A DNA stretch of 64,000 nt from Prevotella sp. (lineage in GTDB: Bacteria; Bacteroidota; Bacteroidia; Bacteroidales; Bacteroidaceae). The notes below the pieces were generated by a model. The model worked only from the letters and a program-made list of their open reading frames with translations, had not been told where the DNA came from and ran no database searches. The translations under genes and the position numbers were made by a program. Positions 14,993 to 19,394 of the stretch are shown here, piece after piece; the first letter of the stretch is position 1; each line of letters begins with the position of its first letter. Location: contig JAFZSL010000056.1 in NCBI GenBank assembly GCA_017619375.1, positions 1-64,000 of the forward strand. Direction: 5' to 3'.

Positions 14993-15022
14993 CTCTCTCG
15001 TCATTATTTGCAAATCAGGGTG

Positions 15023-15053
15023 CAAAGGTAGTGAGAATCACGCGCAACACAAA
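15023..15053 (-). promoter_or_regulatory. glnN promoter (-33/-7)
   Basis: On the minus strand, TTTG (15053-15050) and TACCTTTG (15030-15023) are separated by 19 bp. The predicted start of transcription is near 15017, 13-25 nt before the candidate start codons. Confidence 0.8.
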
Positions 15054-15199
15054 ACCTAACAGCGTTTTTTCGAAAAAATATCAATTGATAAAGTTGAATC
15101 CTCTTAGAAAAAGTCTTTAACAACAGTCTTTTGACAAAAGGTCCTTGTAGTCCCAATAGTCCATAAAAACTTCAATATGCAAAAAAGTATGATGACTTT

Positions 15200-17128
15200 A
15201 TGGGAGGAGATAAGAATATTCATGCTAACTCTTCCTATAATCCTATTATAGATAGCCCTAATACAACTTCTTCAGGACAAAATCCTATGTATGACGCTAA
15301 CACTCTAACGCAAAATGAAATTGTTAATCTACAATCGGAAGAGTTGGCTAAATTGAATGCCCAATGGGAATCTCTAATGGCGCAAGAGGCAGAAAGTAAG
15401 AAAGAACAGAATTATAACAATGAATACACACTTGGCCAAGAATTAGCATTAGGTTTATTGGGAAACAGGACTCATAAAAATCAGCAAGAAAAACCCATGA
15501 CTCGTTTGTTTAACGCGCTGACAGGAAGCCTCCTTGGTAGTAACATGGCTGCCTATGGAGGAAACCTATATGATGGGGAGACTAATCCTACTGGACAGAT
15601 GACTACATCCAAACCCGTATATACCAACAATGGTGGAGGCCCAAAAACAAGATATACAACTGATGGTAGGATACTGACTTACAGCACTGTTCCTGCCACA
15701 GGAGAAGTAAGATGGGTTGATTTGGATGATAGTAAAGATTTTAATGGTGTGACAGGCTACAGATTTTATGATGATGCTGGTAACAAGATGCATTATACCC
15801 AATGGCAAGAAGCAGCAAATACACAGAAACCTTTGCCAACTGTGGAAGAAGTTGATAATTACATCAAAGCAAGAGGTTATAACCCTAACTTTATAAGACA
15901 TATGCAAAATGTGGATTGGATGAATAGGAGTAGTGGAGCTGTGAAGCCTGTATATCCAGAGTTTTATTTTCTTTCAGCTGGAAGGGGAGGTATGAATGGC
16001 GCAGTGGATGCTTTAGGTGAAGTTGGTAATACTGTGCTTACCAATCCATGGGTAGATGCAGGACTAACTTCGTATTTTGGGGCACATGGATTTAACCATG
16101 CCATCAATGATGGTATTGATGGGTGGGGTGATGCAGCTTTGACGGCTTTAGAGGTGATGCCCACAATGAGGGTTGGAAAAGCTATCTATGATGCAAGTGA
16201 ACCTTTTGTTACTGCATTATATGACAATGGTACCCTATGGGATAGATATACTACCTTTAGAGGAAGGTTCGGAAATTATGGGGATAATCTTGCTACTAAC
16301 ATTTATGGAACATTAGCTAGGAGATATGGATTTCCTGACAAGGCGAGGATTCCTGCAGACGTTATAAGGAAAATTAAAGATGAAGCAGTGTTTTCTGATG
16401 AATTAGTTGATTTAACAGGTACTAAGGATTATTTAGGCAATCCACATATCAATGCATCATTAGATAGGCCAGTAGTTTCTCATAAATGGGGATGGGATGG
16501 AGCAGACACCTATATCATGCCAACAAAAAGTTTTATTAACCAAACAGGAGAATCATTGAAATCAATAGAACCAAGTGATATATTTTCTAATGGTGTAAGA
16601 GTACAAGAACAACCTCAAAATGTCACTCTAATATCAGGTGATATAGAAGCTTTAAATAACGCAAGGGAAGCAGGAATGCAAACTCTTTCAAGTCCAAGAT
16701 TAAGAAGATTGTATCAAGATGCATATTCAAAGTATAAGCAACTTGGAATATTGGGTAAACATCCTAAAAATGAGGAGCATTGGCTGGACTATGCTACAGA
16801 AGTGCAAAGATTACAGTCAAGAAGGGGTACTCCTACTTTGGCCGATATTAAACTTTTAGAGCATAAAACTGGGCTAAAAGCTGGCGTTGCTCCTAAATCT
16901 GAATACTATAATGCTCTACAACAGATAGAAGCCATGAAGAATGCTAGTATTCAAGATATTATGGATGGTAAAGTAACACAATATGTGTATCCTAATGGCA
17001 GGGTTGTTGAATGGAGTGATGTGTTAAAAGAATTGAATTTGTTAAAAAGGGCAGAATATAATAAAATATTTTATGATCCCGCCAGTTATGTAGAAAGTAA
17101 TTGGAAAACAATAAACGGAGTTGAATAA
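15200..17128 (+). CDS. Unrecognised 642-residue protein in AT-rich island
   Basis: I do not recognise the family with certainty. The N-terminal about 100 residues are rich in Asn, Gln and Ser, with a short coiled-coil-like stretch (IVNLQSEELAKLNAQWESLM). A Gly/Ala-rich middle follows (AGRGGMNGAVDALGEVGNTV, then HGFNHAINDGIDGWGDAALT). The C-terminal half is mostly polar with WGWDGADTYIMPTKSF and SIEPSDIFSNGVRVQ. No signal peptide is seen. The composition, modular look and nearby portal-like fragment suggest a phage virion or internal protein, or a toxin-like cargo protein; this is an inference. Codon use is AT-rich, unlike the neighbours. The next gene starts 1 nt after its stop. Confidence 0.8.
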   Translation: MGGDKNIHANSSYNPIIDSPNTTSSGQNPMYDANTLTQNEIVNLQSEELAKLNAQWESLMAQEAESKKEQNYNNEYTLGQELALGLLGNRTHKNQQEKPMTRLFNALTGSLLGSNMAAYGGNLYDGETNPTGQMTTSKPVYTNNGGGPKTRYTTDGRILTYSTVPATGEVRWVDLDDSKDFNGVTGYRFYDDAGNKMHYTQWQEAANTQKPLPTVEEVDNYIKARGYNPNFIRHMQNVDWMNRSSGAVKPVYPEFYFLSAGRGGMNGAVDALGEVGNTVLTNPWVDAGLTSYFGAHGFNHAINDGIDGWGDAALTALEVMPTMRVGKAIYDASEPFVTALYDNGTLWDRYTTFRGRFGNYGDNLATNIYGTLARRYGFPDKARIPADVIRKIKDEAVFSDELVDLTGTKDYLGNPHINASLDRPVVSHKWGWDGADTYIMPTKSFINQTGESLKSIEPSDIFSNGVRVQEQPQNVTLISGDIEALNNAREAGMQTLSSPRLRRLYQDAYSKYKQLGILGKHPKNEEHWLDYATEVQRLQSRRGTPTLADIKLLEHKTGLKAGVAPKSEYYNALQQIEAMKNASIQDIMDGKVTQYVYPNGRVVEWSDVLKELNLLKRAEYNKIFYDPASYVESNWKTINGVE

Positions 17129-17129
17129 T

Positions 17130-17495
17130 ATGAATACTGAAGATTTATTAGAATTAGCAAACGAAGTGGGAGCTGATAACGCAATGTCGGTTAAAGATTT
17201 GTTGGGATTGCAATTTGAAATACCTGACTTGATTTTTCAAATAAATGTTGGTAAATATAGATTAGCCATTACATACGGAAAAGGCGAGAATGGAGTTATA
17301 AAAAAATATAAAGGCAATATTTTCACGTTAAACATTAGAGATAAGGAACCACATGCTAGTTTTGATTTAAAAAGTGAGTGGGTTAAACACCTAATCAACA
17401 AGCAACTTTCTATTTTTATGCCTATCATCCAAAAATTCATGGTAGATGCGCTCACTGATAATCTTTCCATCATGGAAGATAACAAGCTAAAGTAA
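17130..17495 (+). CDS. Hypothetical 121-residue protein coupled to the 642-residue gene
   Basis: ATG 17130 lies 1 nt after the TAA of the preceding gene, so translation is probably coupled. The protein is small and soluble, starts with an acidic helix (MNTEDLLELANEVGADNAMS) and has no membrane segment. The C-terminal half looks helical (WVKHLINKQLSIFMPIIQKF). No family is recognised. A large polar protein followed at once by a small acidic-start protein is the layout of many toxin-immunity pairs, but also of phage structural genes; neither is shown. Confidence 0.75.
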   Translation: MNTEDLLELANEVGADNAMSVKDLLGLQFEIPDLIFQINVGKYRLAITYGKGENGVIKKYKGNIFTLNIRDKEPHASFDLKSEWVKHLINKQLSIFMPIIQKFMVDALTDNLSIMEDNKLK

Positions 17496-17518
17496 TAATT
17501 CTCGTCATCCCATCATCA

Positions 17519-17543
17519 AAGGCAGGCATCCCCTGCCTTTTTT
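17519..17543 (+). terminator. Rho-independent terminator
   Basis: AAGGCAGG (17519-17526) pairs with CCTGCCTT (17532-17539) across a 5-nt loop and runs into a six-T tract. It closes the two-gene unit. Confidence 0.88.
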
Positions 17544-17647
17544 CATCATCATTTTCTTGAATTTTCTTGACATATTTATCGATTTCTATTTATAAGGTAT
17601 ATATAGGAAGCATTAATAGAAAAATTTTTGAAAAAATGGCTAAAAAG

Positions 17648-17679
17648 TTTGGTGGAATGGAAAAGATGTATTACTTTTG
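17648..17679 (+). promoter_or_regulatory. Promoter of the candidate structured RNA
   Basis: TTTG (17648-17651) and TACTTTTG (17672-17679) are separated by 20 bp, a full match to the Bacteroidetes consensus. No open frame of note begins downstream for more than 600 bp; instead the first transcribed bases enter a 12-bp hairpin stem. Confidence 0.75.
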
Positions 17680-17685
17680 CATAGT

Positions 17686-18150
17686 AATCAATACAGGAGG
17701 AGATTACAGACATCGTTGGTAATTCTGGGAGCAATCCCTAGATTATATCTCCTGCAGCCTCCTCCTGTATCTCGGTTGCAGGATTTTTATTGTCCCTTTT
17801 AGACCCATAGCTGTCACAGAGCTATGAACGTGCTATTAAGGCCCAGTGGGTTTATATAGAGCACCAGAAGTCGGGTTGTAAGAGCAGGTTGTTTTCCAAC
17901 CACATAGCTCTGAGATACAGGATAACACTCAACCCCGATAGGTCAAATATTTCCCTTGATATAAAGCTGTTCCCCACCAAGCTGTGATGAAAAAAAGGTA
18001 GAGGGTAAACGGGGGTTCGGGGTCACGAATAAAGCCTACGGGTTAGGTGGATATGGACCGCGCAGTGGAAATTCAAGAGAAAATGAGTGACTCACAGGTA
18101 AGGAACCATCAAATGTGAGTTGGAGATCCGTTTAGGGAGATATTATGTCT
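17686..18150 (+). ncRNA. Candidate large structured noncoding RNA
   Basis: Gene-free stretch behind a strong promoter with many exact complementary segments. ATACAGGAGGAG (17691-17702) pairs with 17759-17770 (12 bp). GGGA(GCAA)TCCC at 17727-17738 has a GNRA tetraloop. CATAGCT (17806-17812) pairs with 17820-17826. AGAGC (17881-17885) and GGTTG (17887-17891) pair with GCTCT (17907-17911) and CAACC (17897-17901), nested in TCGGGTTG/CAACCCCGA (17871-17878/17930-17938). ACTCACA (18090-18096) pairs with TGTGAGT (18114-18120). It lacks the conserved blocks of tmRNA, RNase P RNA and group II domain V that I know. The 3' end is uncertain. Phage-linked ornate RNAs (GOLLD, ROOL) are a possible relation, not shown. 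Confidence 0.55.
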
Positions 18151-18326
18151 TTTTGGAAAGGGTTCTTTGGAAAATGAAGCTAATTTGCTTTGTTTCAAGA
18201 AAATAAATTCAAGAATGACAATTGTCAAAAGCAATCATCCTTCATCGTTTCTTGATAATTACATCCAGTAAATTAAGCAAACCTAAGCAAATCACTTAGT
18301 TGCTTTTCATTTGTTACTGCATTGTA

Positions 18327-18334
18327 TATCTTTG
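18327..18334 (+). promoter_or_regulatory. -7 box before the portal-like fragment
   Basis: TATCTTTG lies 18 bp before ATG 18352. A well-spaced TTTG -33 is not seen (TTTG at 18310 is too close). Confidence 0.5.
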
Positions 18335-18351
18335 CCAAAAAGATTGTTTTT

Positions 18352-18942
18352 ATGGCGTACAATGCAATAGGAGGATTCCCTCCGCAACAATTGTCATACA
18401 CAAGGAAGAACAAGGCTTGGAGAAAGAAATGCGTTGATTTTGGCGACAATCACAGCTTGATGCATTATCATCTGGCGAGGAAGGACGTGCTTGCCATGGA
18501 AATCAACTATGACCTCATCAGCGGCAAGCTCCACATGGATGACTTGAGGGCGTTGCTCAATCCCTATAACCTTGATGCTTCCTTCATCCCTGAGAAAATA
18601 CAGCACTACTCGGTCATCAATGCCAAATTGAATGTCTTGAGGGGTGAGGAAAGTGATAGATTGTTTGATTTCAGGGTAGTTGTCACTAATCCTAATGCCA
18701 TCTCTGAGTTAGAAGAAGAGAAGAACAGGCAGGCTAATGAGATGCTTCAGCAGTTGATAGCTGATACTGCCAAGAGTGAAGAGGAGTTTAATCAGGAATT
18801 AGAGAAGTTGTCTGATTTCTTTCAATATGAATATCAAGACAAGAGAGAGATAAGAGGCAACATGCTCCTCAATCATTACATCAGGGAGCTTGAAATAGAG
18901 CAATTGTTCAACAAGGGCTTTTTGCTTATTTGTATGATGTAA
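18352..18942 (+). pseudogene. Portal-protein N-terminal fragment (crAss-like phage type)
   Basis: 196 residues from ATG 18352. The segment MEINYDLISGKLHMDDLRAL, then NPYNLDASFIPEKIQHYSVI, INAKLNVLRGEESDRLFDFR and VVTNPNAISELEEEKNRQ, follows the pattern I associate with N-termini of crAss-like phage portal proteins (a clip/wing region, then a long helix). Such portals are several hundred residues long, so about a quarter remains. The frame ends soon after FNKGF; reading -1 across the T-run at about 18,921 continues AYLYDVIDRLTRLL for some 30 codons, so a frameshift or a junction is likely there. It has its own -7 box, so expression as a short protein is possible. Confidence 0.65.
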
Positions 18943-18986
18943 TCGACAGGCTAACAAGACTCTTGCAAAGAATCAAGGTAAATGAT

Positions 18987-19394
18987 TTAATTCGATACCT
19001 CCAAAGGTGGTAATCCGACCTCCTGTCGCCACTCATTTACACGCGACGCATCCAGCAGCGGACATAACTTGCCATCTGGAGCAATCTGGGTTCCGTATTT
19101 CTGTGGGCGGCCTTCACGGACATCGATACGGTCTTTCAACATGGCCAAATAAAAGGGGGCTACGTCACCATTGCGGACGGCTTCTTCCATCTGTGGCAGG
19201 AATATCTGCTGCTGCTCGAGAGAATTATGCTGAAACACCATCCATACGGCCAGCGCAGCCATTTCCCCCACCTGTGACCTACGTGGAAAACCGCCCTCTG
19301 ACAAAATCTTGTTCACTAAGATGAGATTGGTACTATCCGTATCCAAAGCCCGTCTTGCAAGTTTCTCAAGCAATCGCTTGTTCACCTTCTGCAT
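18987..19394 (-). CDS. DUF6624 family protein
   Basis: 135 residues from ATG 19394 (a TTG at 19409 is an alternative). Conserved DUF6624 traits are visible: EMAALAVWMVFQHNSLEQQQ, AMLKDRIDVREGRPQKYGTQ, and a C-terminal VNEWRQEVGLPPL. The function of the family is unknown; it is widespread in Bacteroidetes and often secreted, but this copy shows no signal peptide and may be shortened at the N-terminus. It is convergent with the portal-like fragment and marks the right edge of the AT-rich island. Confidence 0.75.
   Translation of the reverse strand: MQKVNKRLLEKLARRALDTDSTNLILVNKILSEGGFPRRSQVGEMAALAVWMVFQHNSLEQQQIFLPQMEEAVRNGDVAPFYLAMLKDRIDVREGRPQKYGTQIAPDGKLCPLLDASRVNEWRQEVGLPPLEVSN

Follow-up and report, generated by a model that had tools for sequence, protein, structure and literature searches.

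A covariation-supported RNA of crAss-like phages and its probable copy in a Prevotella-type chromosome

The Prevotella locus

The window, i.e. the whole stretch of 64,000 nucleotides that was analysed, carries a candidate structured RNA within a segment of about 3.8 kb, apparently a phage-derived part of a Prevotella-type chromosome. The segment contains the following features.

15200..17128, plus strand: ORF of 642 aa, residues 32-209 of which are 39% identical to a 687-aa ORF of the homologous locus L043
17121..17495, plus strand: small ORF of 121-124 aa (ORF list, profile searches)
17648..17679, plus strand: Bacteroidetes-type promoter, TTTG at 17648-17651, a 20-nt spacer and TACTTTTG at 17672-17679
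17686..17800, plus strand: optional 5' domain, a 12-bp hairpin around a GCAA-capped stem
17801..18150, plus strand: conserved core of an RNA family, here named type A, delimited by blastn homologues (L022, L043, L044, L046), covariance-model homologues and covariation
18352..18942, plus strand: truncated crAss-like portal gene, first ~191 residues (phrog_6547, E 4e-29; 80% to an IMG/VR contig)

A preliminary description of this DNA read the stretch as a promoter-driven structured non-coding RNA tied to crAss-like phages, and sequence comparison partly supports this. The promoter that it proposed was borne out by direct reading and string search, as was the 12-bp hairpin at 17691-17770, where 17691-17702 pairs perfectly with 17759-17770 around the inner stem GGGA-GCAA-TCCC (17727-17738) with a loop of the GNRA type. 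The absence of a coding frame was confirmed too: no ORF of at least 60 aa exists on either strand between 17496 and 18321. Searches of the stretch for tRNA and tmRNA found none. The downstream portal fragment was also correctly recognized and covers the N-terminal ~191 aa. On the other hand, the hairpin, although present, does not belong to the conserved structure. It lies in a local 5' insertion of ~117-120 nt between the promoter and the core, with no counterpart in L043, in the phage contigs G438 and G439 or in phage crAss001. At the same position L022 has a different extra domain of ~142 nt.

The promoter of the window is in no way special, and resembles promoters of host tRNA genes. When the RNA was used as a blastn query, 15 of 100 genomes were matched; outside the genome of the window the matches covered the promoter stretch only (the first ~55 nt, or similar stretches of ~40 nt, in 14 of 99 relatives). 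A tRNA gene lay within ~420 nt at 6 of the 19 promoter-like sites checked. The window sequence folded by itself is only modestly better than shuffled versions of it (z -1.78), of which 2 in 100 do as well, and its helices alone would not prove an RNA.

The segment has the same layout as L043. In both, an ORF that is partly related (39% over 190 aa) is accompanied by a small ORF, the RNA and the start of a portal gene. The C-terminal part of the 642-aa ORF cannot be aligned with the L043 ORF. The 642-aa ORF also weakly matches a protein of phage cr118_1. No PHROGs or Pfam profile matched the window ORFs at 15200-17495. A first ORF with a related part and an unalignable C-terminus, together with a small ORF (15200-17495 in the window, 7986-10049 in L043), is what one would see for a polymorphic effector and its cognate small gene, and the pair may be of this kind.

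Both portal genes (18352-18942 in the window, 6340-6915 in L043) cease to match phage portals a few nucleotides after TTCAACAAGGG. The L043 segment adjoins a tRNA-Glu gene, and its chromosomal site differs from that of the window. Within 15000-19100 the 8-bp direct repeat GTATGATG is confined to two places, 15187 and 18932, each close to an edge of the segment; it may be a target duplication, and it may equally have arisen by chance. An empty site was found for neither segment. In the case of the window, 32 of 40 relatives had a glnA match, eight stretches upstream of glnA were read, and none of the 29 fetched glnA loci had the window flanks. In the case of L043, the PspC-like flank was matched in 6 of 40 relatives, the best other match being 37%. 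Thus insertion of the segment is not proved. A plasmid search with 15100-18960 produced no match. In the third chromosomal locus, L044, the RNA stands alone beside a gene that looks like riboflavin synthase by eye.

Family members and conserved helices

Three of the 397 other genomes among 398 of the genus were matched by the window RNA in blastn searches. Two of them carry copies, G240 (88% over ~297 nt) and G267 (78% over ~190 nt), whereas the 26-nt match in G260 (L045) was discarded as chance. Of 17 related portal loci in viral contigs, one (L022) holds the RNA, with 81% identity over 266 nt. A pattern scan added L046 on the 123-kb contig G438 (74% over 224 nt), which also encodes a portal 73% identical to that of the window. 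In a plain blastn search of 50,697 phage records, the window RNA matched none of crAss-like kind; the link from the window to the phages runs through the IMG/VR contigs and covariance models.

The first covariance model, R1, was built from five training sequences including the window, which accordingly scored 160.4 bits as a training sequence. Among 399 family genomes it found only the copy in the genome of the window; among 28 crAss-like records it found nine at E 0.01 or better, including three new IMG/VR contigs and the named phages cr128_1, cr111_1, cr118_1 and crAss001. The second model, R2, with nine training sequences, scored in 9 of 29 records and added cr112_1. Members outside its training set were scored at 39.4 bits (cr118_1), 38.4 (cr112_1), 38.3 (crAss001) and 26.4 (G445). 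In all, type A RNA was found in 10 of 40 distinct crAss-like records, namely crAss001, cr128_1, cr111_1, cr118_1, cr112_1 and five IMG/VR contigs. Most other records showed no candidate at first look, and the 30 negatives are soft, as many records are fragments and the search filters lose weak matches.

The RNA of crAss001 used as a blastn query matched 31 phage records: 27 of Bacteroides phages at 99-100% (counting crAss001 and its RefSeq copy), two of cr112_1 (98.8%) and two of cr128_1 (79% over 87 nt, E 5e-11). In the crAss001 record the RNA occupies about positions 660-985. In 29 of the 31 the matched stretch is unannotated, and in the two crAss001 rows it overlaps the end of gp2. The copies of cr128_1 and cr111_1 also match each other by plain blastn (E 6e-5). 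The word AGGYWGAGGGTAAA occurs exactly in 7 of 29 records, all of them R2 finds; if one or two changes are allowed it turns up often by chance, and even then cr118_1 has no match.

Several candidates were rejected: L047 and L048 as chance matches of 18-20 nt inside coding-looking repeats, L061 and L062 for lack of a model score, L031 at 17.7 bits, and cr116_1, which at 16.4 bits looks coding by eye and is not a member. R1 matches of at most 20.6 bits (E 0.03 to 0.74) were also discarded, among them G441 and five extra places in cr128_1. In G441, the IMG/VR contig of locus L030, the portal match is crossed by five TAG codons, which suggests TAG recoding in this phage.

The conserved part of type A RNA comprises 264-347 nt, for which seven helices are proposed: P0, PA, P1, P2, P2a, P3-outer and P3-inner. 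In the window the elements of the core are as follows, all on the plus strand.

17807..17825: helix P0, 5' hairpin ATAGCT/AGCTAT (hand-picked strands)
17830..17864: helix PA, GTGC at 17830-17833 with GCAC at 17861-17864 (hand-picked strands)
17871..17938: helix P1, 17871-17875/17934-17938, enclosing P2 and P2a (pair counts, 9 sequences)
17881-17885/17907-17911: helix P2 (pair counts, 9 sequences)
17887-17891/17897-17901: helix P2a (pair counts, 9 sequences)
17972..18014: helix P3, with P3-outer formed by CCCC at 17972-17975 and GGGG at 18011-18014 (anchor-based test)
17976-17978/17997-17999: helix P3-inner, ACC with GGT (pair counts, 9-sequence alignment)
18000-18009: conserved strand AGAGGGTAAA in P3
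18091..18119: 3' hairpin CTCACA/TGTGAG (string positions)
18128..18154: conserved 3'-end motif CCGTTTAGGGAGATATTAT and T-run (member comparison)

With hand-picked strands, P0 can be drawn in all 12 family members by 11 distinct strand pairs, and PA can be assigned in ten (the exceptions being cr118_1 and G445) by eight. When strands were swapped between members, P0, PA, P1 and P2 paired fully within sequences and at 39-66% across them; these strands too were hand-picked, which biases the test towards pairing.

Since MAFFT alignments of diverged members misplace the strands of P1 and P2, a model-based alignment was used. It has nine rows fitted to the covariance model, with crAss001, cr118_1 and G445 left out. 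In this alignment 98.7% of the cells pair, compared with 83.5% in shuffled controls, double changes are seen in 10 of 19 pairs (4.3 in shuffled controls), and the covariation score is 0.418 (0.161 when shuffled). Control structures slid along the alignment pair at 26-54%.

P3-outer lies outside the model. All four of its pairs form in each of the 11 sequences tested, whereas permutations average 32.4 of 44 pairs, and none of 100000 reaches 44. The offsets were taken from conserved flanking motifs and fixed after inspection of the sequences, the permutations being given equal freedom; two sequences were omitted, the non-member cr116_1 and cr118_1, which has a differing P3 without this helix. 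With offsets chosen in this way, cr118_1 omitted and the sequences related to one another, the result is not a formal probability.

The 3' end is marked by GGGA in all 12 members and by TAT shortly downstream in ten (not in L043 and cr118_1). A T-run follows the end motif in the window, L043, L044, G438 and G439. The 3' hairpin is seen by eye also in L043, while other members have different hairpins there.

Folding energies are ordinary: z over the 12 cores ranges from -3.3 to +0.95 and exceeds -0.6 in seven. Therefore the proof of the RNA is comparative and not energetic. Covariation, which the preliminary description had named as its test, was found among homologues both in the pair counts and in the P3-outer permutations, with crAss-like phage members included. 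The window has a core homologous to the phage copies and covarying helices P1, P2 and P3; on these grounds it almost certainly belongs to the type A family.

Position in phage genomes and exchange of the slot

In phage genomes the predicted RNA opens, or lies close to the start of, the gene block leading to terminase and portal. It lies between divergent genes in crAss001, cr128_1, cr118_1 and G442, and in cr111_1 it is flanked by a tRNA-Arg pointing left and a gene pointing right; in all five it precedes the terminase-portal block. In G445 it is followed by a 173-aa ORF. In G438 and G439 it lies between an ORF of 103-109 aa and a 218-aa ORF, which we take to be spanin-like, near an ORF resembling a tyrosine recombinase by eye; in G438 tRNA-Met is also near. 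RNA and portal have the same direction in all nine phage records where both could be placed (crAss001, cr112_1, cr128_1, cr111_1, cr118_1, G438, G439, G442, G445) and are ~7-31 kb apart. The exception is the fragment L022, where the RNA adjoins a full-length portal ORF and points away from it.

In 8 of 12 members, 13-17 nt separate the start of the -7 element from P0, hence the expected transcription start is near the first hairpin; the promoter ends 5-9 nt before that hairpin in 7 of 12. The arrangement is not strict. The -7 element of the window starts 134 nt before P0, the promoter does not directly precede the first hairpin in L022 either, and no promoter was recognized in cr118_1 and L044. 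Downstream, a start codon follows ~14-72 nt after the 3' motif in all six members with a phage gene next (crAss001, cr111_1, cr128_1, cr118_1, G442, G445), and no terminator is visible by eye between the two. In general the downstream neighbours vary: a late gene, tRNA-Met or the spanin-like ORF, a portal fragment, or no co-directional gene at all (L044). tRNA genes lie within ~0.7 kb downstream in crAss001, where they form a long array, G438 and G442, and there are none in the 7 kb around the RNA of cr118_1.

Comparison of relatives shows that the candidate RNA is a module that is exchanged or missing. Phages crAss001 and tikkala both belong to Kehishuvirus. Their identity is 97% over 224-667, a region reaching through the promoter, and 94% from 1027 (inside gp3) onward. 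Between these regions, ~360 nt in crAss001 and ~330 nt in tikkala have nothing detectable in common, and an R2 scan of the tikkala slot with filters off gave at best 5.9 bits. In DAC15 the promoter runs straight into the first gene with nothing in the slot, the best R2 score in the first 3 kb being 7.2 bits. As it is replaced in tikkala and missing in DAC15, type A is an optional, exchangeable module. In DAC15 (L187 1-1842) the annotated terminal repeat ends near the late promoter, the place of the RNA in other crAss-like phages.

A stretch of bajarodcaudo virus 1 is related to the tikkala sequence, named type B, with 81% identity over 91 nt. Type B shares with type A the slot, the promoter, the next gene and GGGATAACTAT near the 3' end, which terminates the tikkala replacement and occurs also in cr128_1 and G445; however, the two types have no detectable homology. 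The type B leader candidates are listed below.

L186 6745-7073: tikkala
L188 about 1930-2020: bajarodcaudo virus 1

A pseudoknot is possible by eye in tikkala; the fold has z -0.58, and there is no Rfam match. A likeness of type B to RNase P words was rejected, as Rfam scans gave no match.

Comparison with known RNAs and possible functions

No Rfam 15 family matched anywhere in the window at the gathering score, in agreement with the earlier statement that the RNA could be matched to none of tmRNA, RNase P RNA, 6S RNA and group II introns. Six sub-threshold matches in 17500-18350 (E 0.33-6.9) are implausible, eight phage loci yielded tRNAs only, and scans at relaxed thresholds turned up chance matches or none in the window stretch, in cr111_1 and in two type B stretches. 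Thus an overlooked known class (RNase P, tmRNA, 6S, group I or II intron, riboswitch), suggested by loose word resemblances only, is very improbable, and for Rfam 15 families it is refuted at the thresholds used. No earlier description of type A RNA was found in the literature searched, including passages of PMC8040213 and PMC12118408.

The preliminary description had also pointed to GOLLD and ROOL, which form RNA-only multimeric cages. Of this comparison the link to crAss-like phages holds, whereas no match to either Rfam model was found in the window and the core is smaller. By sequence, type A RNA is a member of neither family. ROOL and GOLLD are phage-borne, structured and often near tRNA islands, with unknown function, and ROOL is non-essential in one strain, as described in passages of PMC12286853. 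Type A RNA is likewise phage-borne and structured, with tRNAs close by in crAss001, G438 and G442. However, it has no sequence likeness to them, and its core of 264-347 nt compares with 659 nt in ROOL env-120 and more than 800 nt in many GOLLD RNAs.

The reading that we favour, with slightly less confidence than doubt, is a trans-acting accessory RNA that would work like ROOL and GOLLD. Host RNA polymerase would transcribe it from the stable-RNA-like promoter once the late block switches on; it would be freed as a separate folded molecule, through processing or because transcription terminates at the conserved 3' motif GGGA, and would then act in trans as an accessory of infection, as supposed for ROOL and GOLLD. 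The chromosomal copies would be captured phage pieces or small satellite-like elements keeping the RNA with its own promoter. Consistent with this are the conserved covarying helices, the autonomy of the RNA as shown by varied downstream neighbours and T-runs in five members, the nearby tRNAs, the constant direction relative to the portal in the nine phage records, the host-type promoter and the exchange as a module between crAss001 and tikkala. On the other hand, the start codons close behind the 3' motif with no visible terminator suit a cis-acting leader equally well or better. The ordinary folding energies, the presence in only 10 of 40 records (with the reservations given above), the lack of a crAss-like blastn relative of the window RNA, the orientation in L022, the absence of tRNAs around the cr118_1 copy and the lack of likeness to ROOL or GOLLD also speak against a trans-acting RNA.

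As to the window copy, it is a serious possibility, if short of probable, that it is captured, decaying phage DNA with no function in the host, and that the RNA matters only in the phage. This reading overlaps with the others. It would agree with the truncated portal and with the rarity of the copy both in the model search of family genomes and in the blastn search of the genus. However, two genomes agree in architecture; promoter and helices are intact in both, and the C-termini of the first ORF differ.

Somewhat unlikely is a cis-acting leader. As the 5' part of the late-block mRNA, the RNA would act, still attached, on RNA polymerase or on the transcript, by processive antitermination as in HK022 put or EAR, by protection or by translational control. 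EAR-type RNA is an antitermination leader acting in cis, and HK022 put is much shorter than type A RNA. In the abstract of PMC9378689 put is described as a cis RNA of a phage transcription unit that acts on early genes. Type A would likewise be a cis RNA of a phage transcription unit, but it is absent from some relatives. For a leader speak the start at a promoter (not recognized in cr118_1) and the end shortly before a start codon in six members, the tRNA array that follows in crAss001, and the swapping as a unit between promoter and gene, with the shared GGGATAACTAT at the end of the tikkala replacement. Against it, the DAC15 promoter enters the first gene with no such RNA, L044 has a solo copy, and in G438 and G439 the RNA has a promoter to itself and stands behind a different ORF of the block.

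A more speculative and unlikely possibility is that the slot between the late promoter and the first late gene holds exchangeable unrelated RNAs (type A, type B or none) swapped in an arms race, and that the chromosomal 3.8 kb elements are satellites or decoys exploiting the same RNA-dependent step. Other functions seem doubtful.

An RNA or site for packaging, similar to phi29 pRNA or to a pac signal of the helper that a satellite retains, is quite improbable. The phi29 pRNA, also a phage non-coding RNA, binds the portal motor and is needed for packaging. Indeed, type A RNA lies beside the portal in the window, L043 and L022 (a full-length portal ORF in the latter), the window and L043 both keep the RNA and the portal start cut at nearly the same place, and the end of the terminal repeat annotated in DAC15, at 1842, is near the late promoter. 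However, this reading lost weight since RNA and portal lie far from each other in the phages, ~7-31 kb in nine records; moreover, unlike phi29 pRNA, type A RNA is not universal, many crAss-like phages showing none.

The crAss-like phages are among the most abundant gut phages, according to the abstract of PMC12118408. By sequence comparison, an unannotated RNA of the cultured model phage crAss001 appears also as a copy in a Prevotella-type chromosome. This covariation-supported RNA is unannotated in crAss001 and in 25 further near-identical records of isolates from Bacteroides intestinalis, and it can be tested in a cultured phage, with tikkala (closely related, its slot filled by another sequence) and DAC15 (another phage, with nothing there) as natural controls.
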